The position numbers were made by a program, and so were the translations under genes. Under the pieces are notes generated by a model. That model worked only from the letters and a program-made list of their open reading frames with translations. It searched no databases and had not been told where the DNA came from. From Infirmifilum sp. NZ (GTDB lineage Archaea; Thermoproteota; Thermoprotei; Thermofilales; Thermofilaceae), in NCBI RefSeq assembly GCF_022693705.1, contig NZ_CP094288.1, positions 325,185 to 389,184 of the forward strand: a stretch of 64,000 nt of DNA. Reading direction: 5' to 3'. Positions 6,607 through 30,893 of this stretch are shown here, piece after piece. How positions within the stretch are numbered: position 1 is the stretch's first letter; each line of letters starts with the position of its first letter.

Positions 6607-7271
6607 GGCTGCACCACCCTTTCCCACAGCCACCTCCTCATCCTCTGCAGAAGGGGCTTCCACTCATCCCCGATGAGCCCGTCCAGCCTCCCCTCATCCT
6701 CAACCTTCAAATCCACGACCGACCTCCTCCCGAACCTCCCCGTCCTGAGCTCCGCCATAGCAAGGAGCAGAAGAGGAAGAAGTTCCCTTGCCCCCTCCTC
6801 GAGCCTGACAAAGCCCTCGAACTCTACCCCCGGTGGCAGGTTCTCCATTGTGTAGAGCATGTCCTCCTTGGCTGTGAGAGTCGTGTCGCTGAGGGAGACG
6901 CGAGTCACTATCTCAGTCGTAAGCTCTCCAACGGCCCTGAAGTCGCTCACGTAGAGCTTCGCATGACCCTCCGGGCGCGTCCCGGGGTACCCGAAGAGCC
7001 TGCATACGTCGCAGGGACCTCCCATGCTTTTGTGAGCCTGCTCGATCATCTCGGGCTTTACCTCGCCGCAGCTCGTGAAGCCATAGGCCTCTGCTACGCG
7101 AGAGGCTGAAGTTCTCAGGGCGCCCTTCACGCTACTGCCGGGAATGTACAGCTCGAAGCGGTCCCCGACGAGCTTCCTGGCATGCACCACATCAGCGCCG
7201 ACAACCTCGGGCACTCCCCACCCAACGGTCAGCAGACCCACAGCCTTAAGCCTGATCCTGAACCCTATCAC
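6603..7271 (-). CDS. Type III Cas7-like RAMP (Csm3-like)
   Basis: This is a 222-residue Csm3-like backbone subunit. Landmarks are the YIPGSSVKGALR helix start (about 42-53), a likely zinc cluster around the first Cys (SCGE) and CDVCRLFGYPG, and the GRFGRRSVVDL loop near the C-terminus. An Asp (D27, in VVGADVVHA) sits where Csm3 has its RNA-cleaving Asp, so target-RNA cleavage is possible here. It overlaps the cas10 stop by 4 bp and is followed by a GTGA junction, so it is translationally coupled. Confidence 0.9.
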   Translation of the reverse strand: MIGFRIRLKAVGLLTVGWGVPEVVGADVVHARKLVGDRFELYIPGSSVKGALRTSASRVAEAYGFTSCGEVKPEMIEQAHKSMGGPCDVCRLFGYPGTRPEGHAKLYVSDFRAVGELTTEIVTRVSLSDTTLTAKEDMLYTMENLPPGVEFEGFVRLEEGARELLPLLLLAMAELRTGRFGRRSVVDLKVEDEGRLDGLIGDEWKPLLQRMRRWLWERVVQP

Positions 7272-11938: not shown

Positions 11939-12657
11939 AGATCGCCACCCCTTATTTCCCCCTCAGCCACCTTCGCGAGGCGCCCGTCCCTAGGCTCGTA
12001 CACGTCGTATCTCCCCTCCACGAGCCTGATGAGGCCGTAGCCTACCGTCCTCCTTGCGCCGACCTGCACCATACCGTTAGCCAGGAGCTCAAGCAACTCC
12101 CTAAGGAGCCCACCTCTTTCATCTGCCGGTTGCGGGAAAACCCTTATGTTCACAATGTCCATCATGAACTTCCACCTCACGTAGGGCGCAACTTGCTCCT
12201 CGGTGTACAGGATCCCCGGTTGCGCGCCGCTGAAATCCCTGTTTATGCCGACCCCCGTCTTCACGAACGTGGGAGCAAAGAAGCCCTCAGGATAGGCGTC
12301 GTACACGCGCACGTGGCTCGCCAGCCTAGTGCTACCGAAAGTGCCGCAGATCACGCAGTAAGTCCCATCATCCCCCTCCTCCCTAGCCTCAGGGTCCCAT
12401 GGCGAGTGCACGGGCATGTTCCTGGCCCTGGCGATCGACTCGGCCAAGCTACGCAAAACGCCCTTCAGGCTACTCCCCGGTATGTAGGGTACGCTCTTCC
12501 CGTCGGCGAACACCACACGAAGCGGCGCGGTGTCCACAGTCGATCCGAGAGGTGCCTCCCTCCCAGCCCCCACCCTCAGCGGAGAGACGTTGACAAGCGT
12601 GCCGGTAATCCGGGTGAGCACCTCGAGTTTATCGAAGTCTGCGTAACGTCCCCTCAA
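11935..12657 (-). CDS. Type III Cas7-like RAMP (Csm3-like, likely catalytic)
   Basis: This 240-residue Csm3-like subunit has PLRVGAGREAPLGSTVD, with D42 in the catalytic position, then PYIPGSSLKGVLR, a CVICGTFGST zinc-cluster segment, KTGVGINRD and the C-terminal GARRTVGYG Gly-rich loop. It is close in sequence to its downstream neighbour. The stop overlaps the next start by 4 bp, and only 5 bp separate it from the small-subunit gene upstream. Confidence 0.92.
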   Translation of the reverse strand: MRGRYADFDKLEVLTRITGTLVNVSPLRVGAGREAPLGSTVDTAPLRVVFADGKSVPYIPGSSLKGVLRSLAESIARARNMPVHSPWDPEAREEGDDGTYCVICGTFGSTRLASHVRVYDAYPEGFFAPTFVKTGVGINRDFSGAQPGILYTEEQVAPYVRWKFMMDIVNIRVFPQPADERGGLLRELLELLANGMVQVGARRTVGYGLIRLVEGRYDVYEPRDGRLAKVAEGEIRGGDL

Positions 12658-12662
12658 CTAGC

Positions 12663-13055
12663 TCACCTAGCGCTAGCCAACTGCTTGAGGAGCTCCTCCA
12701 AGCTGAGCTGACTGAGGTCGCCACTTACGCGTTGCATTCCAACGGCCTCGAAAACCCACTTGGCAAAGCCGAGCATCTTCCTAGCCTCTTCCTTCCCGTA
12801 ATCACGCTCGTACAGCTCGCGCAAGGCTTGAGCCACGAGTCTAGCCATCGTGCGCCCTACACCTAGTCTCTGCACCTGCCTCAGCGCGTAAGCAGCGGTG
12901 ACGAGAAGCGCCTCCCTCCCCTCCACGGAATCAAGCGAAGCGATGAGATTCTCGAGCTGCGAGGCCTTAACCCCATCCCTCCTCGCCGCGACACCTATGC
13001 GCGCGCCCCAGTCGAGAAGCCACTTCTCGTCTATCTGCTTCATTTTCGCGGACAT
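12663..13055 (-). CDS. Type III small subunit (Csm2/Cas11-like), first gene of operon
   Basis: This 130-residue, probably all-helical, charged protein has no metal or Cys motifs, matching the size and position of Cas11/Csm2 small subunits that line the crRNA-target duplex. It is the first gene of the eight-gene leftward operon ending at 4730. A TATA-like run (CTTTAAAAAAA) lies about 30 nt before the ATG in the divergent region shared with the gene at 13131. The assignment rests on context, size and helical character; sequence similarity alone is too weak. Confidence 0.75.
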   Translation of the reverse strand: MSAKMKQIDEKWLLDWGARIGVAARRDGVKASQLENLIASLDSVEGREALLVTAAYALRQVQRLGVGRTMARLVAQALRELYERDYGKEEARKMLGFAKWVFEAVGMQRVSGDLSQLSLEELLKQLASAR

Positions 13056-14607: not shown

Positions 14608-15174
14608 GTGGTGGATGAGGTCGAGCTGTGGAGGAGGGCGTTCTGCACCTACACCAAGGAGCCCGGCGTGCTGCAGGCCTGGGTCGAGCACGTAGAGCGG
14701 GTTGGCCCGGAGAGGGCTGTGGAGGAGGCAGTTAGGTACATCAGGGTTTACGGCGACGCGCCCGACGGGGTGACGCTCGGCTTCTCGCCCCAGGTCCTCG
14801 TGGCGGCTGCGGCTGTGCGGGGGATGCAGGGGCGCGAGCCGGCGCTAGTCGTCGTCACGAGCCCTGAGGTCGTGGCGGGCAGCGTGAAGGCCGCGGAGCT
14901 GTCCCACAGGGTCCTGGCCCTCTTCAGGGAGAGCGGGCTCGTCAAGAGCCTCTACACGTCGCTCATGGCCCCCTCGCGCGATGTGAGCGTGGACAGGGTG
15001 CTCTCCGAGCTCACGGGCGCGTTGCAGAGGGCGCGCGGCGACGGCGTCAGGGTGCTGGACATCTCGGGTGGGACGCAGCTCGTCCCGGTGGCGGCGATGA
15101 GGGCGGGCCTGAGGAGGCTGACCTACACCTACCCCGACGGGGAGTACGTCGTCGTCTACGGGTTCGAGGTGTAG
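14608..15174 (+). CDS. CARF-like domain protein (type III accessory)
   Basis: The protein has 188 residues. The central strand ALVVVTSPEVVAGSVKAAEL and the later RVLDISGGTQLVPVAAMRAG match the two ligand-site segments of CARF domains (a first strand with a small-residue loop, and a DxSGGT-like loop before a helix). CARF domains bind cyclic oligoadenylates made by Cas10. No effector domain is visible, so it may be a sensor or a ring nuclease. A TATA-like TTAAAATAG lies near 14480; a 32-codon frame (14520-14618) precedes and overlaps the GTG start and may be a leader peptide or an older N-terminus. It is the first gene of a three-gene operon. Confidence 0.7.
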   Translation: MVDEVELWRRAFCTYTKEPGVLQAWVEHVERVGPERAVEEAVRYIRVYGDAPDGVTLGFSPQVLVAAAAVRGMQGREPALVVVTSPEVVAGSVKAAELSHRVLALFRESGLVKSLYTSLMAPSRDVSVDRVLSELTGALQRARGDGVRVLDISGGTQLVPVAAMRAGLRRLTYTYPDGEYVVVYGFEV

Positions 15175-15178
15175 CCGC

Positions 15179-16351
15179 TTGAGCGGCGGAGTGCTCCCGG
15201 ACAGGTGCGTGAAGAACGCCGCGGTCTTCGACCCGGATATGCCTTACACGTTCACGAGCGCGCTCCTCGAGGTGGACTACCTCTGCGAGTGCGACGAAAA
15301 CGACCCAGATCCATGGAGGCTCCTAGCCGCCACCGGAATCCCGAAAGGGAGGTATCTCCTCGTCGAGGACGTCTCGAAGGCAGCTGAGATCGCCGGGAAG
15401 GTGGCCAAGCGGTCCCTCCTGACGCTGACCCCGGTTCCCAGCGAGCTGTGGGTAAAGGTCAACACTCCTCAGAGCGGAGGCTATGTGGAGGTTCCGGCCC
15501 CAGCCCACCTTGCCTTCAGCGAGATAATCAACATGCTCTTCTACTCCGCGCTCCTGCTCCCCGAGGATGAAGCCAAGAACATCGCGAAGTGGATCAGGGA
15601 GCTCCTCGGATCGCTCGGCGTCACAGGCGGGGAGTCAGGGAGCGTTTACCAGATCGTCAAAGCCCTTCACGACCACGGCAACTTTATCACTGAAAAGCTG
15701 AGGAACCACCTCACGAAGGTGTGCAAGACCCTTTCGTCTCTCTGCAGTAAAAGCGCGTGGGTTGTCCTAGTACAGAAGGGCATGGAGGAATACAGGCTCC
15801 GAAAGGTCCTCGAGAGCATCGAGATCCTCGCTAGCCTGCTCAGGTGCGGGCAACCGGAGAACGGCGGGCCCGATAGGGTGTGCTACATCAGCCAGGAGGT
15901 CCAGAGCTTCCTCAAGAGCAGAGGGATAGAGTTCGCGAGCCTCGCCGGAAACAAGTGCAAGGTTCTCATACAGGTCGACAAGAACGACTTGCTGAAAGAT
16001 CTCTCTAATTCCGGCTACTGTGAGAATGTGTTGTTCATAGTTTTCGGCGACTACGCGAAGGCCGCGCTGAAGCAGGTGCTCGACTCCCAAGCTCGCCACC
16101 AAGTGCTCGTTGTAAACGAGTCCTTCTACGCGCCCTACAGCGAAGTCCCCTACGGTGTTAAATCGTTCTATGGCTACCTTAAGGCGGTCGAGCAAGCCTG
16201 CTATGCTTCAGGCGGTCAGCAACCGCTCTTCGACCCCCAGCAGCTACTGGGGGATTGCCCCCTCGCGTCGGGACTCAGCGATAAGGAGCTCTGCGAGCTC
16301 GCGTTGCTACTGGCGAGGAGCGTGGTGGTTGAAACAGGGGGAGGGCGATGA
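15179..16351 (+). CDS. Unknown Cys-rich protein of the type III accessory operon
   Basis: I do not recognise this 390-residue protein. It contains more than a dozen Cys, including CECDEND near residue 35 and CKTLSSLCSK in the middle, with hydrophobic strands such as VLFIVFGDYAKAAL near 280 that could belong to a Rossmann-like fold. There is no signal peptide. It starts 4 bp after the CARF gene and overlaps the next gene by 4 bp, so the three genes are surely co-expressed. Context suggests a role in type III immunity; a metal site is possible from the Cys content. Both are inference. Confidence 0.7.
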   Translation: MSGGVLPDRCVKNAAVFDPDMPYTFTSALLEVDYLCECDENDPDPWRLLAATGIPKGRYLLVEDVSKAAEIAGKVAKRSLLTLTPVPSELWVKVNTPQSGGYVEVPAPAHLAFSEIINMLFYSALLLPEDEAKNIAKWIRELLGSLGVTGGESGSVYQIVKALHDHGNFITEKLRNHLTKVCKTLSSLCSKSAWVVLVQKGMEEYRLRKVLESIEILASLLRCGQPENGGPDRVCYISQEVQSFLKSRGIEFASLAGNKCKVLIQVDKNDLLKDLSNSGYCENVLFIVFGDYAKAALKQVLDSQARHQVLVVNESFYAPYSEVPYGVKSFYGYLKAVEQACYASGGQQPLFDPQQLLGDCPLASGLSDKELCELALLLARSVVVETGGGR

Positions 16352-17580
16352 GCGTGCTCAGCGTCCTCTTCACCGTCCGCGAGAAGAAGTCGCGCAAGAC
16401 AATACTCGCTGTCCCGTGGCTGGAGGCGGGACGTAGCCTGGGCGACGTCGGCCTCGCCGTGAACTCTGACTGCTTTGCTGAGGGAGACTTAAAGAAGATT
16501 TGCTCTAGTGTGCTAGAGGAGCTGTTGAGGCTGATGGGCCTTGGAGTGCGGATGAAAGTCGAGCAAATGGGAGAAACGATGGGTGCTCTAACGCTCATCG
16601 GGAACAGCCCCCATTATCCCTTCGCCTTCGTGCCGATCCTTGTCGTCGAGGAGATAGAGGAGCACACCTCCTCAGAAGTCGTAGCGAGCATCCACAGGCT
16701 GGCTAAGAGACCCCTCTCCCAGCTACCAGCGGACACCCTATGCTCAAGCTGCGCACCTTCCCTTGAAGTGGGCGACGACGAGCACGAGCAGCAGCTGGCC
16801 GCTACAACGCTGGCCTCACTGCTCACCGCGAAGACCAGGCGCGGCTACTACCTCTCGCTTGTGCTGGCGCAGTCCCTCCCGCTCTTCACCCGTGCCGGGG
16901 TCAGCGCGGAGGCCGTCTCCACGGCTCTCGCCGCGGCTCTGAACTATGTGTACGGCTACTACGGGAGGAGGATAGCCGGGGAGTTCGGCGAGACGATGAG
17001 GTTCCTCATGGCCGAGCCACCAACCCCCATTGAGCTTAACCCGAGCGAGCTCTACGCGAGCATCCTCGACACGTTCAAGCGGCTTGGCGCCTCCGACACA
17101 CAGCTACTTATCGCAGAGCTCGAGAGCACCGTGAAAGCGAGGCTGGGCTTGCAGCGCTCAGAGATCCTCTTCGGCAGAAGCACTCTCCTCCACCGCGCAC
17201 TTACGAAAACGATAACGGGCGGTAAATACGACACGATCGTAACCGTGGCGACCGAGCAGTGGGGCCCTCTCCAGCGCGAGCTACTCGCAGAGCACCTAGA
17301 CAAGGAAGGCACGCTTGCGGTGCTTTTCACCCAGGCCTCGCTGCACAACGTCCTAGCCGAGAGGATCGTCTCCGGCTGGCTGAAAACGCACGGTAAGCTA
17401 GTCTACGTCCCCACATCGGCCACCGACTCCTACCTGCTCAGCCAGGAGAGCCTCGAGGCCGCCCTCAAGAAGCACGTCAAGAACAAGCGCACCATAGTGG
17501 TGGCCCAGGGCCCGGCATCCATCGCGCTCCCCCTCTACGCCTGGGCCAAGAAGACGGGAGCAGAGGCCGTCCTCGTATAA
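16348..17580 (+). CDS. Unknown protein with possible C-terminal CARF-like domain
   Basis: The protein has 410 residues. The last ~140 hold three alpha/beta segments, TIVTVATEQWGPL, TLAVLFTQASLHN and TIVVAQGPASIALPLYAWAKK; the last resembles the glycine-loop-plus-helix of CARF domains with GG changed to GP. The N-terminal part (SVLFTVREKKSRKTILAVPWLEAG) is a ferredoxin-like or unknown fold. It could be a ligand-sensing effector that does not match a known Csm6/Csx1 HEPN: no R-X4-6-H motif was found. Stop-start overlap with the previous gene; leader 2 begins 24 bp after its stop. Confidence 0.65.
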   Translation: MSVLSVLFTVREKKSRKTILAVPWLEAGRSLGDVGLAVNSDCFAEGDLKKICSSVLEELLRLMGLGVRMKVEQMGETMGALTLIGNSPHYPFAFVPILVVEEIEEHTSSEVVASIHRLAKRPLSQLPADTLCSSCAPSLEVGDDEHEQQLAATTLASLLTAKTRRGYYLSLVLAQSLPLFTRAGVSAEAVSTALAAALNYVYGYYGRRIAGEFGETMRFLMAEPPTPIELNPSELYASILDTFKRLGASDTQLLIAELESTVKARLGLQRSEILFGRSTLLHRALTKTITGGKYDTIVTVATEQWGPLQRELLAEHLDKEGTLAVLFTQASLHNVLAERIVSGWLKTHGKLVYVPTSATDSYLLSQESLEAALKKHVKNKRTIVVAQGPASIALPLYAWAKKTGAEAVLV

Positions 17581-17604: not shown

Positions 17605-17840
17605 TTTTCAACAGTGAAAAAATCTGAAGTATTTAAGGTTTTCTCTGGGAAGACTGGGGTGGAACATAACCCTGTTATCTTATTAATCAAGTTTCATTAA
17701 CGTCGCGAACATTTAAAATACAGGGAGGGTTAGAAATCACAACCGCGGGAAAAGTCACCCTGCAAAAACGCGTGTTCGCACGGGAACAAGGAACAGGCTA
17801 AAAAGGAACATTTAAATACCCCCTCCCACATGGTTTAACG
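17605..17840 (+). promoter_or_regulatory. CRISPR leader 2
   Basis: This 236-bp leader is the inverted counterpart of leader 1. It begins with the palindrome TTTTCA-ACAG-TGAAAA (17605-17620), contains the conserved TTATTAATCAAG, AAAACGCGTGTTCGC and AAAAAGGAACA blocks, and has TATA-like ATTTAAATA at 17810-17818, about 22 nt before the first repeat. It ends TTTAACG against the repeat. Confidence 0.92.
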
Positions 17841-20800
17841 GCAGAAGTCAAGAGACAATTGAAAGTATCAGCGCGGGTATCGCCCTTTCCATGTACTTGC
17901 GGCTTTCAATGCAGAAGTCAAGAGACAATTGAAAGTTTGCGCCACTTCTCAGCCTCTGCCTTGTAGGCATCGAGCATCGGCAGAAGTCAAGAGACAATTG
18001 AAAGCTACGTCTACAAGAGTAACGCTACGCCCCATATCATCTATTTCGGCAGAAGTCAAGAGACAATTGAAAGTACAGCATCATGCGGCTCTATTTCATG
18101 CCAAGTCTCAGCAGCAGAAGTCAAGAGACAATTGAAAGTCTATAACCTCATGAGGAGTGTCTGCTCAGGAGTGTTGCAGAAGTCAAGAGACAATTGAAAG
18201 AAACCATATAAAAGTTGTAGCACCATTCGAGAGAGAAATGAGTGAGGCAGAAGTCAAGAGACAATTGAAAGGACGAATACCGCCACGGCAAGCGCCGTAT
18301 CCCACTAGCATAGCAGAAGTCAAGAGACAATTGAAAGTTATCAGGCATTAGCTCATCTAGCTCTCTCAGGAATCCCCGCAGAAGTCAAGAGACAATTGAA
18401 AGTTACGTAGGGTTCATGGACGGCGTGACGCACAGGGCTATCTTTGCAGAAGTCAAGAGACAATTGAAAGCCTCACCGCGTGTAATATCCTTCAATGTCT
18501 TAATGAATGTTACGCAGAAGTCAAGAGACAATTGAAAGCAGGTTCAACTACATATTTGCCTTTAGCATTTTGAATAGAGTTCAATGCAGAAGTCAAGAGA
18601 CAATTGAAAGAAACGCTTCGCATGCAAAACATGCAAAACCTAACCCCAAGCCAGAGCAGAAGTCAAGAGACAATTGAAAGGCGCAGAGCGAGCTCGCGCG
18701 GAAACTGGGACTCGTCGCAGAAGTCAAGAGACAATTGAAAGTACACATTTCACGTACGCGAAGACGCGGTGGCTCCGGGCAGAAGTCAAGAGACAATTGA
18801 AAGGACGCGGGGGGGCTCGGGCTGAAGCCCGCCGACTTCGTGGGCAGAAGTCAAGAGACAATTGAAAGTGTCTTAGACTTCAGCGTACCACGCTACCTTG
18901 AGATCCGCTGTGCAGAAGTCAAGAGACAATTGAAAGTCCCGTTATCTCGCTCACGCGCTGTAAAAATGCAAGAAAGCAGAAGTCAAGAGACAATTGAAAG
19001 GATGCAGTCATAGCTTGGAGCCTTGACCGCTTCGGCCGCACGAGCAGAAGTCAAGAGACAATTGAAAGCCGCACCGTAGTTCACCGAGGCGTTGACGAGG
19101 CTCGTGGGCAGAAGTCAAGAGACAATTGAAAGGGAAGACGCTACGCGCTTCAGCTCCCATACGATAGTGTTCTCAAGCAGAAGTCAAGAGACAATTGAAA
19201 GGGTTGTTCAGTTGCTACATGAGGTGGTGGTTCGTGAAGAGCGGCAGAAGTCAAGAGACAATTGAAAGAGACTATATGTTAGTGTTAATCGTGAGAGAAT
19301 ACTCAAGGTGAGCAGAAGTCAAGAGACAATTGAAAGTTTCACAGCTATTATCGAATGGGAGGTTTTTCCCTTACAATTGTTTGCAGAAGTCAAGAGACAA
19401 TTGAAAGAGCAGTACCATCAGTAGCGCACCCGCCAACGTTACGGCCTCCACAGAAGTCAAGAGACAATTGAAAGCCTCGAACTCGACGCGCTTAGGCTCA
19501 TCGGGGTCAACGAGCGCAGAAGTCAAGAGACAATTGAAAGACGTAGCTCGGGTTTGATTTCAATCAGCCAGTCAGCATCATCGGCAGAAGTCAAGAGACA
19601 ATTGAAAGGAAGTTCCCCGTGTTGCGTACGTAGAAGCCACCGGAGAGCAGAAGTCAAGAGACAATTGAAAGGCAGAGCACATTCAGAGGAGGGGCAGGCC
19701 CGTTGCGGTCTGCAGAAGTCAAGAGACAATTGAAAGTGCAAAGGACTACGCGTTGAACCCCTTCGCGCCGAAGCTTCCCTGGGCAGAAGTCAAGAGACAA
19801 TTGAAAGCAAAACACTGAACCCTGCACCATAGTCGTTCACGGTGAAAGTAGCAGAAGTCAAGAGACAATTGAAAGGACAGGGCCATTGACCAAGTGCTGA
19901 AGAACATTCAGGACACGCAGAAGTCAAGAGACAATTGAAAGAAGCACCCTAGGTAGGAGCGACTTTAGGTCGTTGTCGATGGTGCGCAGAAGTCAAGAGA
20001 CAATTGAAAGCGTGGTTGTAAAAAACGGTGGTGATAAAAAACCTGCAACTAGGTCCCCGCAGAAGTCAAGAGACAATTGAAAGCTCGTCGGCTATAACCT
20101 TAGCGTCGTCTGCCGTGAAGTAGCCGTAGGCTACGCAGAAGTCAAGAGACAATTGAAAGATCTAACATTTTTGAGATAGAGGAAGCCCCCGCGTCGCGGC
20201 AGAAGTCAAGAGACAATTGAAAGTGGCAGGAAGTCAACATGGGTTTCATCCTAGGCGTCACGCCTCTAGCAGAAGTCAAGAGACAATTGAAAGCCTCGTC
20301 TCCGCGTCCACTACGTCCTCGCCTCTACCTGCAGAAGTCAAGAGACAATTGAAAGTTTATTATTTTGTACGCATCGACTAAGTTCAAGCTAGCGCAGAAG
20401 TCAAGAGACAATTGAAAGAATAACCACGGTTGGGATGGTAATGAACAGCGGTATCCACTGCTTTTGCAGAAGTCAAGAGACAATTGAAAGATATCCTGCT
20501 CTCTGCAAAACCTGCAAAAGGTTAGGCCGCAGAAGTCAAGAGACAATTGAAAGTTCATTGTCTCACTGTGACTTGCACGGGCTTGCGTATATTCGCAGAA
20601 GTCAAGAGACAATTGAAAGGTGAGTTCTATCGGCTGGCTAGCACTCGGATATTACCTGGACACGATGCAGAAGTCAAGAGACAATTGAAAGCTAATATCC
20701 TAGCTGTAGGAACCGGTGACATAGCTAAGTGGGGGCTGGGAGCAGAAGTCAAGAGACAATTGAAAGCTGCTCGTGCGCTCCAGCGGCGACGACAACGGTC

Positions 20801-21573
20801 TCGAGCAGAAGTCAAGAGACAATTGAAAGACTGGTATTGCTGTTCTACGTCATCGCGCCCGTCGCGTACCTAGGCAGAAGTCAAGAGACAATTGAAAGGC
20901 GTGCGCTTGAAGCGGAAAGTCATCGTTTTCTTGTCGTACGCAGAAGTCAAGAGACAATTGAAAGTTGAGTTCATTAACGTGCTTGAGAGTTACCTTTCAA
21001 GCCTTGAGCAGAAGTCAAGAGACAATTGAAAGTCGTAATAGCTGGCGACGTGGATGTCCGCGCTCCCGTGCCCGACGAGCAGAAGTCAAGAGACAATTGA
21101 AAGGCAAATGTTTCCCTTACAGTCAAAAACGGTAATTTCTGAACGAAAGCAGAAGTCAAGAGACAATTGAAAGAGCCTCTTCGACAAAAGCTTGACGGCG
21201 TCCCAAGTAACCGCAGAAGTCAAGAGACAATTGAAAGGCGCGGTGACGGTGTTCACCTGAACGGCGTTCTCGTAGTAGCAGAAGTCAAGAGACAATTGAA
21301 AGCCCTTCAGCCCCCTCACCACGTCAACCTCGCTTTGCGAGCAGAAGTCAAGAGACAATTGAAAGATCGTCAAAAGAATGCGGAAATCCCCGCTCTTCAA
21401 AGCAGAAGTCAAGAGACAATTGAAAGCCTTGGAAGTAGGCGATGAACTGGCCCGGCTTCAGCTTGATGGAAGAAGTCAAGAGACAATTGAGAGTCCTACG
21501 AAGTATCCCCTCTTCGCACCGCGCGCGGCACCCGCATGCGTGTATGCTGAAAAAAGTCAAGAGACAATGAAGG
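17841..21573 (+). CRISPR. CRISPR array 2: 56 repeats, 55 spacers, read rightward
   Basis: Repeats of 25 nt begin GCAGAAGTC and end AATTGAAAG. I count 56 copies from 17841 to the degenerate last copies. One copy (19450) starts ACAG. The last two, at 21469-21493 and about 21549-21573, are decayed (ending TTGAGAG and AATGAAGG) and carry the GAA form seen in array 1. This degeneration marks the leader-distal end. It is the longest array in the window. All frames in it that repeat EVKRQLK or RSQETIE are repeat translation, not genes. Confidence 0.97.
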
Positions 21574-21647: not shown

Positions 21648-22487
21648 CTACTGCTGTGGGGTGCTTTGGGCTTCTTGCGCCTCACCGGTGTGCAGCTGCT
21701 CCACCTTCACTCTGCCGAAGCCGAGGGACCTGGACTGGCCGACGCCGGTGATCTCGGCGAGCTTGAGGGCGGCGAGGATTAGGGGGGCGTCCCTGGAGCC
21801 GTGGACGGCGTACAGCGCGTCGCCGATGAAGGCGGGGATCACCCTTCCCTCCCCTATGTCGACCCTGAGTGGCCTCGCCCTGGGGGCTCCGACGGCCTCG
21901 ATTGTCTTGGCGATGGTGTCGCTGGCGGGCCTCGTGTCCACGCTCGTTACGCGGGAGTAGGTCTTGAGGGCGCTGAGGGCGACGCGGGTGGGGGAGGGGT
22001 AGAGGACGTCGCTCCCGTAGAACATGAGGATCGTGGGGGAGAGGAACCTGACCCTTAGGACCGCCAGCCTGGGGGGCTTTGGGGGCTGCGGGGGCTCGGC
22101 CTGGGTGAAGGAAACACTAGCCACCTCGAACCTGCCGCTGGGGAGCTCGAGGTTGGGGTCCTGGGCGATAGAGAACATGTAGTCGGAGGCCAGGGCTTCG
22201 GAGTAGAAGTGGGCCGTGACGGTGATGGGCGTGCCAGCCTTGACCTCGCGCACCCTCGCCCTCCCGCTCCTCCCCACGATGCCGGTGAGGAGGTAGCCCT
22301 CCGCGCCGTCGACGGCGAGGGGCTCTACGGAGAACTGCTTCTCGGCCCTCTTCGGGAAGTCGATCCTGGCCCTGTGCAGGAACTCGTAGACGACCCTCAG
22401 CGCGAAGCTCCCGCTCCAGCTCACCACGGGGGTGTCTTGGCGGGGAATCAGGGTCAGGGAGACCGTGTAGATCCTCGGCTTCTCCAC
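21648..22487 (-). CDS. cas6: Cas6 pre-crRNA endoribonuclease
   Basis: This RAMP-fold nuclease has 279 residues from a GTG at 22487. The C-terminal EITGVGQSRSLGFGRVKVE is the Gly-rich loop that defines Cas6; the N-terminal half starts IYTVSLTLIPRQD. Cas6 cuts the repeat to leave the 8-nt handle ATTGAAAG. A longer frame to 22547 is open, but a strong TATA-like TTATATTTTA (about 22520-22530) would then lie inside it; the GTG lies where a leaderless transcript should begin. It is the only cas6 in the window, so it probably processes all four arrays. It faces array 2's old end and is divergent from the NurA-like gene. Confidence 0.92.
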   Translation of the reverse strand: MEKPRIYTVSLTLIPRQDTPVVSWSGSFALRVVYEFLHRARIDFPKRAEKQFSVEPLAVDGAEGYLLTGIVGRSGRARVREVKAGTPITVTAHFYSEALASDYMFSIAQDPNLELPSGRFEVASVSFTQAEPPQPPKPPRLAVLRVRFLSPTILMFYGSDVLYPSPTRVALSALKTYSRVTSVDTRPASDTIAKTIEAVGAPRARPLRVDIGEGRVIPAFIGDALYAVHGSRDAPLILAALKLAEITGVGQSRSLGFGRVKVEQLHTGEAQEAQSTPQQ

Positions 22488-22693
22488 GCGGCTGCACCGG
22501 CCGCTAACCAGACGCGCGGGTAAAATATAATGGTGACGGCAGTCCACGCGGGAAAATTTCCACGAAGAACTGCTATCCTCCCGAGATATAATCCGGTAAA
22601 ACTCCGTTTTTCAGAAACATTCACCTGTAACAGCCGAAGGCCGTTGAAACTTCACTTTCACTCATATCTTCATCAGGAATAAAAGTTCAGGTT

Positions 22694-22709
22694 CTGAAAT
22701 GTGTTTCAG
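22694..22709. promoter_or_regulatory. Palindrome at the start of the NurA-like gene (possible operator)
   Basis: CTGAAA-TGTG-TTTCAG is a perfect 6-bp inverted repeat with a 4-nt centre and covers the GTG start codon at 22701. Its core GAAATG-TG-TTTC resembles GAAATGCATTTC upstream of csa1 (27989-28000). A repressor site is possible. Confidence 0.4.
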
Positions 22710-24065
22710 GCGGTTGGGTTGCCGGCGGCGCCCGTGGCGTACGCGTCGAGGCTGGAGGGGGTGTTCAAGGCGTGCCTAGAGCTGTCGGCGGAGAGGGGCT
22801 ACTTCACCCCCTCGGAGCTGGCCGAGAGGCTCGGCGTGACGGAGAGGATGGCCAGGTACTACCTCATCGACCTGGTCTCGATCGGCGCGGTCGAGTACGC
22901 TGGGGGTGGGAGGTACAGGCTAACGGAGGGCGCCTCTAGGGCGGTTTTGAGGGCCGAGGTGTTCGGAGCCGACTCGCAGCTGGAGAGCGTGGTCGCTGAG
23001 ACGTTGCTGAGCAACCCCGAGGTCGCGGACGCGCTCTTCGAGAGGGTCTACAGGCTGAGGAAGAGGCTGGAGGCCCTAGGCGACAGGGGCGCACTCAGGA
23101 GGGCCTTCGAGTCCCTAGCGGGGGACGTGCTGGTCGGGGACAGGGCGATTCTCTCTTCGAGGGAGCTTGAGCCGTCGAGGCCCGCTACGCTGGCGGGGGC
23201 TGCCTACGAGGCGGTGCTGAGGGACTACGCGCTGGCCGGCAGCATCGTCATCGCGGTTGCGTACCTCGCGGCGTGCGTGGCGCACGTCCAGCTGGACGAG
23301 GCGGGGCAGGTCTCCGGGGTGCGGTTTGTGAGGCGGCCGGACCTGAGGAGCTTCAGGGGCTCGCAGCCCTTTGACGAGGGCGTGCTGGAGCTGGCCGTGG
23401 AGAGGCCCGAGCTGCTGGCGGCGGGCAGGAGGCTCGCGGCGAGGTTCATCGTCGCCAGGATGACCTACGAGGCCATGAGGAGCCAGGTGGAGTCCGAGCC
23501 CCCTGAGCTGGCCCTGCTCGGCGGGAGCCTCTGGCCGCACGGCTTCGTGGTCTGGGGTAGCAGGGAGCTGCAGAAGCTGAAGGAGGGCATGGAGTCCGCG
23601 TTCCTCGACCTCCTCGAAGCCGCCTCCTCGAGGGGGGTCACGCTCGCCGGCGTTGTCCTGGTCCCGAGGGACAGCAGGCTGTTCGCGGCCGTGAGCGGGA
23701 GGCTGGGGCTGAGCGGGCCCGCGGTCAGCGACTTCGCGCTCCTCTCCTACGTCCTCGAGCCCTGGGAGTACACGGCGCCTATGAGCCTCGAGAGGGAGAG
23801 GGGGAAGAGCGTCAGCGGGTGGTACGAGTTCTACTGGAAGGTCGGCGAGAGGCTCGTGAAGGTCGAGTACGTGACGCGCTCCGACCCCCTAGCCGTCCAG
23901 GAGGAGATCGTCCGGGCGCTCAAGGGCAACTTCTACGCCCGCGGCGAGCCCCTGGGAGTGGCGGAGGCGAAGGCGGAGGCCGGCAGGCTCGTCAGGCACC
24001 TCGAGGCGTGGTTCAGGGGGGCTCTGGCGGTGATCGCACGTGGAGAAGCTAGGGGTAGTTATTAG
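22701..24065 (+). CDS. Winged-helix plus NurA-like nuclease domain protein
   Basis: The protein has 454 residues. Residues about 15-75 form a winged helix (YFTPSELAERLGVTERMARYYLIDL). From about 265 a NurA-like domain follows, with LALLGGSLWPHGFVV where NurA usually has an Asp-Gly-Ser motif, then GVVLVPRDSRLF and a C-terminal VKVEYV...DPLAVQEEIVRAL. NurA is a 5'-3' nuclease that works with HerA in end resection. The usual Asp of the first motif is not obvious here, so activity is uncertain. It overlaps the HerA-like gene by 26 bp. The pair sits inside the cas cluster, which suggests a defence or adaptation link. Confidence 0.72.
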   Translation: MFQAVGLPAAPVAYASRLEGVFKACLELSAERGYFTPSELAERLGVTERMARYYLIDLVSIGAVEYAGGGRYRLTEGASRAVLRAEVFGADSQLESVVAETLLSNPEVADALFERVYRLRKRLEALGDRGALRRAFESLAGDVLVGDRAILSSRELEPSRPATLAGAAYEAVLRDYALAGSIVIAVAYLAACVAHVQLDEAGQVSGVRFVRRPDLRSFRGSQPFDEGVLELAVERPELLAAGRRLAARFIVARMTYEAMRSQVESEPPELALLGGSLWPHGFVVWGSRELQKLKEGMESAFLDLLEAASSRGVTLAGVVLVPRDSRLFAAVSGRLGLSGPAVSDFALLSYVLEPWEYTAPMSLERERGKSVSGWYEFYWKVGERLVKVEYVTRSDPLAVQEEIVRALKGNFYARGEPLGVAEAKAEAGRLVRHLEAWFRGALAVIARGEARGSY

Positions 24066-25401
24066 CAGGAACCCGCCGACCGAGCTCGCGTTCGAGTTCG
24101 AGGTCACCGAGCCGGGCTCGGTCGCCACGGGGGACTTCATCGAGGTCCCCGTCGAGGGGGGCACGCTCCTAGCCAGGGTCGTGAGCGTCCAGGCGATCAA
24201 CGCGGCGCTCAGCGAGGTCGGGGTCGTCTCGGAGGCCAGCGAGTACGGCCTCAGGCTGCCAGCGTCCACCCTACTCGCCGCCTCCGAGGTGCAGGTCGCG
24301 AGGGCTAGGGCGCTCGAGGTAGTGACCGCTTCGGGCGAGCTGGTCCCGCCGATGCTCCCGCCCAGCCCTGGGACGCCGGTCTACCCGGCTTCGAGGGACT
24401 ACCTGATGAGGCTGCTCGGCCTCAGAGAGGGAGGGGTGAGGCTCGGGGAGCTCTGGCGCGTGGGCGTGGAGGCGCTCCTCGACGCGGACACGCTCGTCAG
24501 GCACCACGTGGCCGTAGTGGGGGCGACGGGCTCGGGGAAGTCGCACACCCTGGGCGTGCTGGCCGAGGAGCTGCTCGACCACGGCTACCCGGTCGTCGTG
24601 GTGGACGTGCACGGCGAGTACGGCTTCCTGGAGGGGGAGGGCTACAGGGTGAGGAGGGCGAGGATCACCGAGGTGCTCCTGAAGCCCGGCCTCCTGAGCC
24701 CCGACGCCGTGGCGGAGGCCACGGAGATGACCGAGGTACAGCGGGACCTCCTGCACCTCGCCTACGAGGAGAGCGACGGCGTCGAGCTGAGCGACATCAT
24801 ATCCAGCGTCGAGAGCACCGCCGAGAGGTACGGGTTCAGGAGGGAGACGGTGATAGGGGTCGTGAGGAGGCTCAGGACGCTGAAGGCTATGGGCATCTTC
24901 ACCGGGGGCGGCGGGGCAGGGCCACCAGAGGAGCTCGTGGAGGAGGGCAGGGCCACAATCCTCGACGCCGGGCTCGGGCTCCCGGACAGGGCTACTGGGG
25001 CGCTCGTGGGCTCCATCGCCTGGGCGCTCTTCGAGCTGAGGAGGACCAACGATGTGCCCGGCTTCGCCCTTATCGTCGACGAGGCGCAGAGGTTCCTCCC
25101 GCAGGACGAGGACGTCTTCTCGAAGAGGGCGCTACGCGTCATGGCCAGGGAGGGGAGGAAGTTCGGGGTGGGGCTGATGGTAGCGAGCCAGCGCGTGGTG
25201 GGCCTCGACAAGGACGTGCTCAGCCAGTGCGGGACCAAGATCGTCCTGAGGATGGACAGCGCCACCGACCTCGCCATGCTGAAGCCTCTCCTCGGCTCCA
25301 GCCTGCGCCTCGTCCCGCACCTGCCCCGCGGCATCGCCCTGGTCGCCGGAGTAGCGGTCAGGTACCCTGTGCTCGTCAAGGTGAGGCCTAGGAAAGGCTA
25401 G
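24040..25401 (+). CDS. HerA-like hexameric ATPase/DNA translocase
   Basis: This 453-residue protein has an N-terminal HAS-barrel-like beta domain (to about 100). The FtsK/HerA ATPase follows, with Walker A GATGSGKSHT (161-170), DVHGEYGFL after it, Walker B ALIVDEAQRFLPQ (about 345-357), GREGRKFGVGLMVASQR sensor and C-terminal PHLPRGIALVAG. HerA pumps DNA into NurA. The GTG start overlaps the NurA-like gene, so the two are translationally coupled. The stop overlaps the end of the convergent cas4 by 4 bp. Confidence 0.9.
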   Translation: MEKLGVVISRNPPTELAFEFEVTEPGSVATGDFIEVPVEGGTLLARVVSVQAINAALSEVGVVSEASEYGLRLPASTLLAASEVQVARARALEVVTASGELVPPMLPPSPGTPVYPASRDYLMRLLGLREGGVRLGELWRVGVEALLDADTLVRHHVAVVGATGSGKSHTLGVLAEELLDHGYPVVVVDVHGEYGFLEGEGYRVRRARITEVLLKPGLLSPDAVAEATEMTEVQRDLLHLAYEESDGVELSDIISSVESTAERYGFRRETVIGVVRRLRTLKAMGIFTGGGGAGPPEELVEEGRATILDAGLGLPDRATGALVGSIAWALFELRRTNDVPGFALIVDEAQRFLPQDEDVFSKRALRVMAREGRKFGVGLMVASQRVVGLDKDVLSQCGTKIVLRMDSATDLAMLKPLLGSSLRLVPHLPRGIALVAGVAVRYPVLVKVRPRKG

Positions 25402-25985
25402 CCCAGCTGCCTGCAGACGCGCCTGTAGTAGCAGTAGCCGCACTTCCAGCTAGCCTGCCTCGGGGGCGGCTTAGGGGCCTCGAGGTCGCGCCTCATCCGC
25501 TGGGCGAGGGAGGCCACGTAGCTCCTGAGGGAGGGCGTCACCCGCACTTCCACCCACCTGCCCGAGCCCACGATCAGGACGGAGTCCGCCGTGGCCCTGA
25601 GGGTCTCCTCCGCCAGGAGGGCGTACGCTACGCCCTGGGCTAGGACGTGGCGAAGCCTGCCGTAGAGCGAGCGCCGGGAGACGTCGCTCAGAGCCTTGAC
25701 CTCCACAACCCTGACGAGGCTGCCGCGCCTCAGCACCGCGTCCGCGTAGCCGTGGAGCCCCAGCCTCCTGCTCCTCACGTAGAGGTTCCTCAGGAGCTCC
25801 CAGCCCGCGGGCGGCCTCAGCTCCGGAAGCCCCGCCTCCCCCGCGGCCCTCATGGAGGGGGTGACGTAGTCCCCGCCGAGCCTGAGCTGGAGGTACGCGT
25901 ACCTAGGGCAGTAGGCGTACTCCTTGAGGAGGGCGACGGGGAGCAGACCCGCCTCCTCCAGGCTATACGACGACACGCGCCTCAC
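25398..25985 (-). CDS. cas4: Cas4 adaptation nuclease
   Basis: This 195-residue RecB-like nuclease has an N-terminal YAYCPRYAYLQL (first Fe-S Cys), a nuclease core GYADAVLRRGSLVRVVEVKAL with the D and EVK residues, and a C-terminal CGYCYYRRVC cluster giving the other three Cys of a 4Fe-4S site. Cas4 trims pre-spacers and selects PAM. It is the last gene of csa1-cas1-cas2-cas4; its start overlaps cas2 by 23 bp. Confidence 0.93.
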   Translation of the reverse strand: MRRVSSYSLEEAGLLPVALLKEYAYCPRYAYLQLRLGGDYVTPSMRAAGEAGLPELRPPAGWELLRNLYVRSRRLGLHGYADAVLRRGSLVRVVEVKALSDVSRRSLYGRLRHVLAQGVAYALLAEETLRATADSVLIVGSGRWVEVRVTPSLRSYVASLAQRMRRDLEAPKPPPRQASWKCGYCYYRRVCRQLG

Positions 25986-26244
25986 CCCCGAGCGGGGCCA
26001 TGGGCCTCCCGGCTACCAGCGCGCGCTCGAGGCTCTCGTCGGGGACGACCAGCACGATGACGCTGTCGCCCTCCTGGGTGACGTGCCTCTGCGCCACCCT
26101 GTAGACGTCCTTCGCGAACGCGTAGCCGCCCCTGCCCACGAAGACGCTCCGCTGGACCCGGGTGAGGGACAGCCCGAGCAGGCGCGAGGAGAGCCTCAGC
26201 CTGTCGGCGTCGTCGCTTATGTCGTACACGACCACGACCCTCAT
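25963..26244 (-). CDS. cas2: Cas2 adaptation protein
   Basis: This 93-residue ferredoxin-like protein starts MRVVVVYDISDD, with the conserved Asp after the first strand, and continues LTRVQRSVFVGRG, a typical Cas2 segment. Cas2 dimers bridge Cas1 dimers for spacer integration. It overlaps cas1 by 4 bp and cas4 by 23 bp. Confidence 0.94.
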   Translation of the reverse strand: MRVVVVYDISDDADRLRLSSRLLGLSLTRVQRSVFVGRGGYAFAKDVYRVAQRHVTQEGDSVIVLVVPDESLERALVAGRPMAPLGGEARVVV

Positions 26245-27203
26245 CCCATCCTCGCCCTGAAGCCCACGTACTCCTCAAGCTCGCCCCTGAGGTAGCTGGC
26301 GAGCTCGGACGCCTTCCTGACGATGATGTCGTCCAGCGTCGCCCTCCCCGCTCTGTAGGGGAACTCCCTCCCCAGCGCATCCAGGACTGCTGCAGCCACC
26401 CTCCTCCTCGAGTCCCTGTCCAAGATCCCGTTCGAGGCCGTGAGCACGAGCCGGGCGAAGATCAGGGCCTTGTCGACGACCGGCCTGAACTGCTCGATAA
26501 AGTCGTAGACCAGGGTCCTCTGCCCGCTCTTCATCGCGTGCATGAAGCCCGCGTAGGGGTCGAGGCCGACGAGGAGGAGCGCCCTCTCGCACCTCGCGTA
26601 GAGTATCCCGTAGCCGTAGTTGAGCGCCATGTTGAACACGTCGAGCCCCTGCGGGTCCCTGCCCGTGAAGCCGTAGCTCTCGGGGAGCAGCTTCGCGACA
26701 GCCCCCCAGTACACCCTCGCGGCCTGGGCCTCGAGCTCCCTGATCTCCGCGGCGTCCGGCCTCGCGCGCCTGATCTCGTCCGCCAGGGCCTCAACCCTCT
26801 CAGCCTCAATCGCGAAGTAGTCGTCACGCCTCGACTTCGCCGCGTACCTCAAGATGCCCGCCTGGTTGCGCACCTTCGCCTCCACGATGCTCTTCGCCGC
26901 CTTAAGGCCCCGCCCGTCCACGATCGCCCTGTACTGCGCCACCCTCGTCGCGGCGGTCTTGTTGATCGTCGGCGGGTAAACGCGGGCCACCGGGTGCCCG
27001 TGGGCCCCGAGGAGCGTGACGTCGACCCCGTGGGCCGCGAGGGCCTGCAGGGCTGCGGAGGTGATGCTCGCCGCCCTCGTCGCGATCACCACCGAGTCGT
27101 AGACCGCCGGGGAGAGCTCCACAGCCTCGCCGTCGCTAGTCCGCAGCACCACCCTGCCCCTCTCCACCCTCACCCTGCACGGCTTAGACACGAAGAGCAG
27201 CAT
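26241..27203 (-). CDS. cas1: Cas1 integrase
   Basis: This protein has 320 residues from the ATG at 27203, which begins the canonical MLLFVSKP strand; upstream codons are open to 27272 but lack family likeness. It has an N-terminal beta domain (ELSPAVYDSVVIATRA, ALAAHGVDVTLL), then the helical catalytic domain with DVFNMALNYGYGILYARCERAL, LDPYAGFMHAM and LVYDFIEQFRPVVDK, containing the Glu, His and Asp metal ligands. The start lies inside the 3' end of csa1 (20-bp overlap). Confidence 0.95.
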   Translation of the reverse strand: MLLFVSKPCRVRVERGRVVLRTSDGEAVELSPAVYDSVVIATRAASITSAALQALAAHGVDVTLLGAHGHPVARVYPPTINKTAATRVAQYRAIVDGRGLKAAKSIVEAKVRNQAGILRYAAKSRRDDYFAIEAERVEALADEIRRARPDAAEIRELEAQAARVYWGAVAKLLPESYGFTGRDPQGLDVFNMALNYGYGILYARCERALLLVGLDPYAGFMHAMKSGQRTLVYDFIEQFRPVVDKALIFARLVLTASNGILDRDSRRRVAAAVLDALGREFPYRAGRATLDDIIVRKASELASYLRGELEEYVGFRARMG

Positions 27204-27975
27204 GGCACACCGCCCTCCAGGGGCACCACTCCGGGCAGTCGTCCGCCACCCCAGGGTCCTCGCGCGACTCAACGACCCGCGCCACGTAGTCCCTAGCCTC
27301 GAGGAAGCGGCCCCTCACCGAGTCGTCGAGGACGACGGTCCTCCAAGTTATCCTCCCGCCCGCGAACTGCGCCACCACCCCGTAGTTCACGGGGTTGCTC
27401 GTCAGCGCCTCTACCGCGAGCGCGTAGGCGGTCACCGCCAGCTCCTTGCGCTCCAGCCCGTTCCCCGTGACGAAGTCCACTGGCACGCCGCCCACCAGCA
27501 GGTCGGGCCTAACCGTGTCCGAGAGCCCCACCAGGCTACCCGGCAGCTCCGGCTCGACCGCCACAGGTAGCCTGGCGCCGCCCACGCCCCACGCGCTAGC
27601 CAGGGCGAAGGCCTCGTCGAAGACCCTCGACGCGGCCGCCCTTAGGTCCCTCGGAGCCCCCCTCAGCAGCCTAGCCTTAGCCCTCGACGCCTCCTCCACG
27701 CTCACCCGGCCCCTCAGCGCCAGCCTGAACGGCTCGAGGAAAGCCTCGTGCAGGAGCCTCCCCACCTGCAGCACCCCGTCGCCCTGAGGCCTCAGCCCCC
27801 TGACCCTCCTCAGGTACGCGTCGCGCTTCGTCGGGCAAGGCGAGGAAACCTCGCTCACAGTCGGCATGAAGCCGTGCCTCGCCCCCACCTGCTCGAGCCT
27901 CCAGCCCCTCAGCTCCACCACGAGGTCACCGGCCACGACGCCCCTCACCTTACCCCAGACAGTCCACGGGAACAT
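27184..27975 (-). CDS. csa1: Csa1, Cas4-family adaptation protein
   Basis: This 263-residue protein has the Csa1 signature SPCPTKRDAYLRRV (about 45-58), a PD-(D/E)XK-like core (VRPDLLVGGVPVDFVTG, with LERKELAVTAYALAVE) and a C-terminal Cys cluster CPEWCPWRAVC for an Fe-S site. In crenarchaea csa1 heads the csa1-cas1-cas2-cas4 adaptation operon, as here. The core EVK is degenerate (DFVTG), so nuclease activity may be lost. The promoter lies in the 116 bp between csa1 and leader 3. Confidence 0.9.
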   Translation of the reverse strand: MFPWTVWGKVRGVVAGDLVVELRGWRLEQVGARHGFMPTVSEVSSPCPTKRDAYLRRVRGLRPQGDGVLQVGRLLHEAFLEPFRLALRGRVSVEEASRAKARLLRGAPRDLRAAASRVFDEAFALASAWGVGGARLPVAVEPELPGSLVGLSDTVRPDLLVGGVPVDFVTGNGLERKELAVTAYALAVEALTSNPVNYGVVAQFAGGRITWRTVVLDDSVRGRFLEARDYVARVVESREDPGVADDCPEWCPWRAVCHAALRV

Positions 27976-28103: not shown

Positions 28104-28338
28104 TTTTCAACAGTGAAAAATTTAGCTATATTTAAGGTTTTCTCTGGGAAGAGAATGCTGGAACATAACCGAGTTATCTTATTAATCAAGTTTCATTAGC
28201 GATGCGAACATTTAAAATAGAGGGAGGGTTAGGAATCACAACCACGGGAAGAGATAAGCCTGAAAACGCGTGTTCGCACGAGAACAAGGAACAGGCTAAA
28301 AAGGAACATTTAAATAGCCCCTCCCACAACGCTTAACG
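28104..28338 (+). promoter_or_regulatory. CRISPR leader 3
   Basis: This 235-bp leader runs from the palindrome TTTTCA-ACAG-TGAAAA (28104-28119) through TTATTAATCAAG, AAAACGCGTGTTCGC and AAAAAGGAACA blocks to TATA-like ATTTAAATA at 28308-28316 and TTAACG against the first repeat. It is closely similar to leader 2 across its whole length and lies divergently from csa1. Confidence 0.92.
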
Positions 28339-30893
28339 GCAGAAGTCAAGAGACAATTGAAAGTTAAACATACCGTTATACTACGACCCCGAGACGCGCA
28401 AATTCCGCAGCAGAAGTCAAGAGACAATTGAAAGGTGATCGCCTACGACGCCGTGCGGGACCGAGTCCTTGCCCGCAGAAGTCAAGAGACAATTGAAAGT
28501 CCGCGTCCGCTAGGCTGGCCTGGCCCTGCAGGTAGGCGTCGCAGAAGTCAAGAGACAATTGAAAGCATCAACCCCGTAATCAGCTTCTCAGCCTCACTGT
28601 CACGTGCGCAGAAGTCAAGAGACAATTGAAAGGCGTTGTCCTTCGGCACCGTGCAGAAGGGACAGCGCGCGCAGAAGTCAAGAGACAATTGAAAGTTCTG
28701 AGCCCGCTTCGGGGGGCGGGCGATGAGAGAGGGCAGAAGTCAAGAGACAATTGAAAGTCACGCCTAATCTCCTCAAGCTTCTTTCTCACATCATCAGGCA
28801 GCAGAAGTCAAGAGACAATTGAAAGTAATGCTACTCAGCTCTCGGTTAAGGACTATCTGAAGAAATACGCAGAAGTCAAGAGACAATTGAAAGCGGATAC
28901 ACGGTTGACGTGGACTCGGCTCTCGGCAAGATCCGCAGAAGTCAAGAGACAATTGAAAGATCGGCTATCGCATTTATCTCCTGCTGGGAGTAGCCCATCT
29001 GCCTCAGCAGAAGTCAAGAGACAATTGAAAGTCAGTTGCGGTTATGCATGCGAGCGAGGATGTCCGAGCAGAAGTCAAGAGACAATTGAAAGTGCCATCT
29101 CCTGGGCTGTTTTCCTGCTGCTCAGCAGGAGGCTCCTGAGCAGAAGTCAAGAGACAATTGAAAGAAGAGCGGCATAGCGGAGGCGGGCGGCGCGAGGGTG
29201 CTCGCGCGCAGAAGTCAAGAGACAATTGAAAGACTCGTCATCTAGACACCCTCTTGAACTGGTAGACCCGGCAGAAGTCAAGAGACAATTGAAAGTCTAA
29301 GCAGAGGGGTAACGAGGTTGTGATCGCGACCAAGGATCTGCAGAAGTCAAGAGACAATTGAAAGCAGTACTTCTTCTTCCACTCCACCAGCTGGCGAACC
29401 TGCAGAAGTCAAGAGACAATTGAAAGTTACCCTTCCAGGCGAGCACCACGGGTATCACGCGGTTCATGACGTGCAGAAGTCAAGAGACAATTGAAAGGGC
29501 TCTCGAAGCGCGTCCTCGAGGTATGGGTTGACTCGCAGAAGTCAAGAGACAATTGAAAGTCGCCTACAGTTGTCCAGTTGTACCTAGGCAACAGCTCCCG
29601 CAGAAGTCAAGAGACAATTGAAAGAATGTGCAAACAGACCCCTCAACTGCCACGCGTGTTGTACGCAGAAGTCAAGAGACAATTGAAAGACTATAAAACA
29701 CAATTCCTTTTTTTACCCATCTTTTCTCAGGTGAGGCAGAAGTCAAGAGACAATTGAAAGCCTTCTACTTCCTTCTACTACTACTTCCATAGGAAGACCT
29801 CGAAAGCAGAAGTCAAGAGACAATTGAAAGACCGCTTTGAATCACAACGATTTTGTAAACATAACTTATAGGCAGAAGTCAAGAGACAATTGAAAGATAG
29901 AATAGATGGGCCTTCTCCCCTGCGAGTCTATCCCTACGGGCAGAAGTCAAGAGACAATTGAAAGGCCAAGGTTGCGGGCACCTAGAATGACCCGCAACTG
30001 GATCCAGCAGAAGTCAAGAGACAATTGAAAGCTCAAGAAGCGTGAGAGCCAACTTGAGCTGCTCTAGGAGAGCAGAAGTCAAGAGACAATTGAAAGCTGC
30101 TCAGGCCCAACACCGCGGTGAACATCAAAGTCACGGCAGAAGTCAAGAGACAATTGAAAGTAGGCGATGTATAGGTAGGTCAGCGCGGCTACGGCGGCTG
30201 CCGCGCAGAAGTCAAGAGACAATTGAAAGACGGAGCTATCCATATCCACATGGTGCTCTTCGGTGTGAGGAGGAAGTCAAGAGACAATTGAAAGTCTTAT
30301 GAAATCCGATCGGTTCACGTAAATGCCGGCCTCGGAGGAAGTCAAGAGACAATTGAAAGTGGGTTGTCTCCCTGAGTGGCAAAATGACAAAGCTCTGCGA
30401 GGAAGTCAAGAGACAATTGAAAGCTACGACTGGGACAACACCTCCGCCATCGTCGCGCTGGGAGGAAGTCAAGAGACAATTGAAAGGGGTCAATCTCCTC
30501 TAGGGGAGCTATTCGTGAGAGAAGGAAAAGAGGAAGTCAAGAGAGAATTGAAAGGACAGCCGTGTTACTCTGGGTGCTTGAGAACGTGGGGCAGAGGAAG
30601 TCAAGAGACAATTGAAAGGATCCCTAGTTCTTACGCGCCGAGACGTTTTATATGTTTATTTGAGGAAGTCAAGAGACAATTGAAAGAACTCCCTGTTGAA
30701 AGCGAAGCCGCTGGGGTGACGGTGGATGGGTGAAGAAGTCAAGAGACAATTGAAAGAAGCTCGCTGAGGTTCCACATGACGTTGTAGACGGTCTCGAAGA
30801 AGTCAAGAGACAATTGAAAGTGTCGGATAGGGAGAGCTTGCCGTGCTCGGAAAGCAGCTTTCAATTGTGAAGAAGTCAAGAGACAATTGAAAA
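28339..30893 (+). CRISPR. CRISPR array 3: 39 repeats, 38 spacers, read rightward
   Basis: The first 29 repeats have the GCAGAAGTC form. From 30270 seven repeats (30270, 30335, 30399, 30462, 30530, 30594, 30662) begin GAGGAAGTC, and the last three (30732, 30796, 30869) begin GAAGAAGTC as in array 1. The copy at 30530 has a G for C (GAGAGAATT), and the last copy ends TTGAAAA. Spacers 17-20 (29427-29664) are identical to spacers 2-5 of array 4. Confidence 0.97.

Follow-up and report, generated by a model that had tools for sequence, protein, structure and literature searches.

What does a NurA-HerA pair do inside a CRISPR locus? The question is raised by a window of 64,000 nucleotides (bases 325185-389184) in the genome of Infirmifilum sp. 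NZ, a single contig of 1,829,130 bases. A preliminary description had placed the pair between cas6 and the adaptation genes, and both open reading frames were confirmed there, flanked by cas6 and by cas4-cas2-cas1-csa1 (Table 1). The order between the two CRISPR arrays is cas6 (-), wH-nurA (+), herA (+), and cas4, cas2, cas1 and csa1 (-). The frames of nurA and herA overlap by 26 nt, while herA and cas4 are convergent with a 4-nt overlap. HerA matches the Pfam domains DUF87 (1.5e-26) and HerA_C (7.4e-10). A csa3-cas11-cas7-cas5-cas8a set follows downstream of the second array. The ORFs at 4730-13055, upstream of the first array, are read as putative cas10 and RAMP genes; in the related locus L025, the pair adjoins a comparable set. 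Three adjoining ORFs at 14608-17580 precede the first array. One encodes a weak Csa3_N/CARF-like protein, and the other two matched no credible Pfam family. Directly past the last array, 41481-42707 encodes a Mrr-type restriction endonuclease domain with a winged helix.

Table 1. Features of the gene block, with coordinates in the window and supporting evidence.
Feature	Coordinates	Strand	Evidence
wH-NurA-like protein, lineage 'A', 454 aa	22701..24065	+	ORF; NurA fold Z 15.1; purifying selection vs L025
N-terminal winged helix, residues 10-85	22728..22955	+	weak Pfam wH matches; MntR/HmgR-like structures; wH profile
Motif I Asp position, Ala168 here	23202..23204	+	Asp in 19/20 other NurA rows, 0/7 lineage A
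Motif III Asp position, Gly274 here	23520..23522	+	Asp in 20/20 other rows, 0/7 lineage A; 0/8 including split protein
Catalytic Lys position, Leu320 here	23658..23660	+	Lys in 20/20 other rows, 0/7 lineage A
HerA ATPase, 453 aa	24040..25401	+	ORF; Walker A GATGSGKS and Walker B VDEAQ intact
cas6	21648..22547	-	PF10040 4.4e-13
cas4	25398..25985	-	TIGR00372 9.7e-25; (D/E)-x-K intact (VEVKA)
cas2	25963..26244	-	PF09827 5.5e-13
cas1	26241..27272	-	PF01867 7.5e-63
csa1 (Cas4-like)	27184..27975	-	PF06023 5.4e-50; E-x-K Lys apparently moved downstream
CRISPR array upstream of block	17824..21494, ends approximate	+	
CRISPR array downstream of block	28311..30820, ends approximate	+	

By sequence, the NurA match is weak: PF09376 gave an E value of 0.0074 and 16.2 bits, against a cut-off of 21. 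A profile of A1 searched against the PDB found winged-helix proteins only and no NurA structure, and phmmer with two housekeeping NurAs matched no NurA structure. In hhalign, lineage A NurA aligned to the housekeeping pair with a probability of 76% and to L090/L092 with 56%; the NurA profile of the sets B and C described below gave 0.8%, i.e. no match. AlphaFold2 models were built from four sequences. Mean pLDDT was 63.5 for the predicted full-length protein and 67.6 for predicted residues 112-454 (pTM 0.67); in both models the stretch from about motif I onward lies mostly below 50. With residues 112-454, VIA-align ranked all seven listed NurA structures first (Z 15.1-10.0, rmsd 3.6-4.2, 222-230 residues), the best being 2ygk (Z 15.1, rmsd 3.7, 230 residues). 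Argonaute/PIWI entries (Z 7.0) were the first non-NurA folds after them. Foldseek likewise placed two NurA chains first for the trimmed model, with weak E values of about 1e-3; for the full-length model its matches were methyltransferases and winged-helix proteins, all above E 0.001. As modelled, the domain after the winged helix clearly has the NurA (RNase H-like) fold, with the motif I region predicted at low confidence. The N-terminal winged helix, described beforehand as an addition to NurA, was borne out by the matches in Table 1 and by a lineage-restricted profile, which recognized 7/7 lineage A NurA rows and 0/20 other NurA rows.

The nuclease residues of S. islandicus NurA are D58, E116, D133 and K202 (PMC4351679, in part); D49 is one in T. 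kodakarensis NurA (PMC12977600, in part). An alignment of 27 NurA rows, 7 from lineage A and 20 others, was used for comparison. Equivalents of D58, D133 and K202 are lost in all seven lineage A rows, and the E116-equivalent shows no conservation in an alignment judged by eye. The single row outside lineage A without the motif I Asp, P2_L034, is probably misaligned. The motif III position is Arg in an eighth, split lineage A protein. Residues 58-229, including the motif I region, contain no column of D/E only across the lineage A rows, a result that holds without any motif I alignment. The atypical first motif of the preliminary description is real but understates the change: besides motif I, the catalytic Lys and motif III are gone too. 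Compared with its counterpart in L025 (70% identity), nurA shows differences per codon position of 0.21, 0.16 and 0.45, and 0.58 at four-fold sites, a pattern resembling that of the cas neighbours. Judged by these substitutions, nurA is under purifying selection and not in decay. The partner nuclease of HerA has apparently lost its cutting residues in a protein otherwise conserved.

Production of pre-spacers or degradation of foreign DNA by a nuclease had been suggested for the pair. Stated so simply, this idea finds no support, since every member has other residues in place of the known NurA catalytic ones. A rearranged active site is still conceivable, because nine acidic residues are invariant in the lineage A NurA domain before the last helix (E230, E234, E237, D324, D344, E366, E376, E389, D395); these could form such a site and count against a non-cleaving NurA. 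NurA would then still be a nuclease, and the pair would degrade foreign DNA into pre-spacers, like bacterial RecBCD. A Glu one residue ahead of the motif I position in 5/7 lineage A rows and the CRISPR linkage, which fits a supply of pre-spacers, are in line with this explanation. With every aligned catalytic position lost, Lys included, and no acidic column across residues 58-229, it is unlikely. Catalytically lost paralogues often turn into regulators, and the winged helix resembles MntR/HmgR. The winged-helix pseudo-NurA might thus control cas transcription, or act as a brake that competes with the housekeeping NurA for HerA and limits resection at arrays under repair. A pure regulator needs no HerA of its own; the retained partner, with Walker A and B motifs intact in 7/7 lineage A HerA rows, makes such a role quite improbable.

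A search for a second, housekeeping nurA-herA yielded three further NurAs in the genome, each adjoined by a HerA. All three score above the Pfam NurA cut-off, the window copy below it. In one of these pairs (L033), nurA-herA is followed by a metallophosphoesterase and then by an SMC/AAA protein, and L077 and L093 have these four genes in the same order. The L033 set is probably the housekeeping nurA-herA-mre11-rad50 operon, the names mre11 and rad50 resting on domains and gene order. This operon lies about 165 kb from the window pair, which has cas genes as neighbours and no adjoining mre11 or rad50, as described beforehand. The window pair is like the housekeeping HerA-NurA complex, which resects ends with Mre11-Rad50, in subunit folds, HerA ATPase motifs and nurA-herA order. 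It differs in having no mre11/rad50 neighbour and no catalytic residues, and in its added winged helix. For the pair of Pyrobaculum, Bernick et al. (2012; PMC3396285, in part) suggested the repair of array gaps after spacer integration, via homologous-recombination functions. For the window pair this role is very unlikely. End resection requires a nuclease, nuclease-dead NurA mutants of S. islandicus are described as toxic (PMC4351679, in part), and an intact housekeeping nurA-herA operon is already present in the genome.

Lineage A (7 HerA rows) formed one clade (99/99) in a HerA tree of 29 rows. Two further CRISPR-linked sets, B (7 rows) and C (4 rows), each formed a clade, and B and C together another (95/95). 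One set C locus, L084, has the order csa1-cas4-cas1-x-cas2-cas6-nurA-herA on one strand. The nearest row to the B/C HerAs is P3_L075 (100/100). Its locus (L075:2-7798) encodes a HerA-NurA pair with a strong NurA (1.1e-40) beside an Eco57I-type methylase and BrxL, a BREX-like defence context. Repeated recruitment of HerA-NurA by CRISPR loci is likely, because a single clade of A, B and C was rejected (p-AU 2.6e-6), yet the clade with P3_L075 added was not (p 0.386).

A CRISPR-linked nurA-csm6-herA cluster has been published for Pyrobaculum/Thermoproteus, a NurA-HerA paralogue adjoining CRISPR arrays and cas genes as in the window, and a role in adaptation was proposed there (Bernick et al., 2012; PMC3396285, in part). 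We take set B for this cluster; the gene arrangement agrees, with an ORF between nurA and herA in L074. The published cluster has csm6 between nurA and herA, whereas the window genes overlap with no intervening gene. Set B NurAs keep Asp/Asp/Lys and are without the winged helix, lineage A NurAs being the opposite on both counts, and in the HerA tree of 29 rows set B stands on a branch separate from lineage A. CRISPR-linked nurA-herA is therefore known, but the window lineage is a variant, since the Pyrobaculum lineage keeps its active site and has its own branch in that tree. A second source, PMC10910872, is presumably Altae-Tran et al. 2023. NurA and HerA are named there as putative CRISPR auxiliary genes, and the parts available describe no lineage, active site or adaptation operon for them (PMC10910872, in part). 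Searches of the open-licence literature yielded no account of a NurA that combines a winged helix, catalytic loss and fixed linkage to an adaptation operon.

A protein search found this wH-NurA in 8 of the 81 genomes of the class; Cas1 was found in 47/81. A profile search over 398 genomes of the phylum recovered the same eight, full-length or split at a contig end, and no further members; it matched 11/398 genomes, three of them with short winged-helix-only frames that were left uncounted. On viral contigs, 47 pattern stretches contained no relatives. On genome contigs, 10 matching stretches represented 9 loci, three archaeal and full-length, six winged-helix-only and presumably actinobacterial. 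The proposed co-occurrence with cas1 and csa1 was found throughout, nurA-herA lying beside a csa1-cas1-cas2-cas4 cassette in all eight genomes that encode this NurA. The linkage spans four family-level groups, in three of which nurA-herA is co-directional with csa1-cas1. In f1 (G000, G030, G034, G028, G029), herA converges on cas4. In f3, f10 and f11 (G011, G008, G009), nurA-herA-csa1-cas1-cas2 run on one strand throughout; cas4 comes next except in G011, whose contig ends in cas2. The distance from nurA to cas1 is about 2.2 kb in 7/8 genomes and about 6 kb in G029. In G029, nurA breaks off where one contig ends and resumes where another starts (L031 and L032, two halves of one NurA, were treated as separate rows); the contig ends are inferred to join, likewise in G009. 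The HerA of L030 is truncated, a frameshift being the probable cause. Within the genus, the pair is gained or lost together with the cassette: both are present in G000, G030 and G034, G035 carries a different Csa1 type without the pair, and G031, G032 (the species of the window) and G033 (81% complete) have neither Csa1 nor the pair.

Eight genomes retain the gene block, and the arrangement of the pair is therefore not due to chance. The pair is not the only HerA-NurA of its genome, and its neighbourhood is conserved. By gene neighbourhood, its standing as a component linked to the CRISPR adaptation machinery is strongly supported. A stand-alone HerA-type defence system had also been suggested; on this view the pair would act against phages and share a defence island by location only. 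In bacterial defence, HerA has other effector partners (PMC12977600, in part), and PADLOC gave HerA matches. Like HerA-Sir2 and HerA-DUF4297, the window pair combines a HerA-type motor with a separate effector subunit; unlike in those systems, the partner is of NurA fold and encoded with cas1/csa1. No member was found outside an adaptation cassette among the 81 class and 398 phylum genomes, and scans of the two proteins revealed no partner domain of toxin or NADase-like type. The NCBIfam anti-phage HerA models NF042943 and NF042944 gave 87.9 and 77.8 bits, far under their cut-offs of 800 and 850. Stand-alone defence has accordingly little probability.

The Csa1 encoded next to the pair belongs to a sub-lineage of 13 of the 40 rows in a Csa1 tree (SH-aLRT 100), comprising window 27184-27975, L025, L026, L027, L029, L030, L031, L142, L128-L131 and L140. 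The tree excludes the duplicates L125, L132, L133 and L135, one cas4 ORF and one fragment. The (D/E)-x-K Lys is missing in 13/13 sub-lineage rows, and the other 27 rows, which count one gene twice (L116, L150) and are a subset of all Csa1 matches in the class, retain it in place. All 13 sub-lineage rows have a new invariant Lys a few residues downstream (RKE/RKD/RKS/NKE), and Csa1 as a second dead nuclease was rejected on this ground; from the alignment, the Lys looks relocated, not lost. The expectation that every Lys-relocated Csa1 adjoins HerA-NurA failed, the pair being present for 8/13 rows. Four g27 cassettes (L136-L139, for Csa1 rows L128-L131) and L140 contained no HerA and no credible NurA in the stretches examined; one NurA-profile match in L137 (2e-4) falls on the cas2 ORF. 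In f13 genomes, cassettes with a Csa1 of this sub-lineage have no HerA within the stretch examined, which means that adaptation does not strictly require the pair. In genome G055, csa1 and cas1 are fused in one open frame of 596 aa (L140:456-2246). Genome G028 carries, besides its A-type cassette, a second csa1-cas1 cassette (contig C96, L143) with an intact E-x-K Csa1; this locus also encodes a Csa3-like protein with a winged helix similar to the one in wH-NurA.

The earlier interpretation stands as far as the adaptation link is concerned; nuclease-type supply of pre-spacers or degradation of foreign DNA is unsupported in its simple form, and stand-alone defence is unlikely. In our preferred reading, to which we give nearly an even chance, HerA and NurA form a module dedicated to CRISPR adaptation, and NurA has turned into a subunit that no longer cleaves. 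The function of the pair is what we infer, while fold, residue loss, Walker motifs, gene overlap and linkage are read at sequence or model level. HerA would form a hexamer that pumps dsDNA, with a NurA dimer as its cap. Lacking cleavage, HerA-NurA would unwind or feed duplex ends, Cas4 and Csa1 would trim the exposed strands, and Cas1-Cas2 would integrate them. The winged helix might help the complex onto DNA or attach it to Cas proteins, which is a guess. In T. kodakarensis, HerA-NurA made nuclease-dead by D49A still unwound about 45% of a splayed-arm substrate, and NurA residues contributed to the unwinding (PMC12977600, in part). The natural residue loss fits a HerA-NurA that only pumps and unwinds, in concert with Cas4 and Csa1. 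Cas4-family exonucleases act on ssDNA and would need a helicase, for which HerA is a named candidate (PMC3466216, in part). Class-wide counts speak against a module dedicated to adaptation: Csa1 occurs in 42/81 genomes, the pair in only 8/81, and most Csa1-bearing genomes of the class are without it.

A further-reaching version of the non-cleaving module is possible, with the balance of probability against it. The pseudo-nuclease NurA would make HerA-NurA a pure pump or helicase and a stable subunit of an archaeal adaptation complex, an archaeal counterpart of RecBCD/AddAB in spacer supply. Cutting would be left to Cas4 and the Lys-relocated Csa1, and such pairs would have been taken up by CRISPR loci of the class more than once. 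A complex of HerA, NurA, Cas4, Csa1, Cas1 and Cas2 is predicted by this reading. For archaea without RecBCD, the pair is a concrete candidate for the missing pre-spacer helicase. If the reading is true, this would be, within the open-licence literature, the first natural NurA with a conserved role independent of the known active site.
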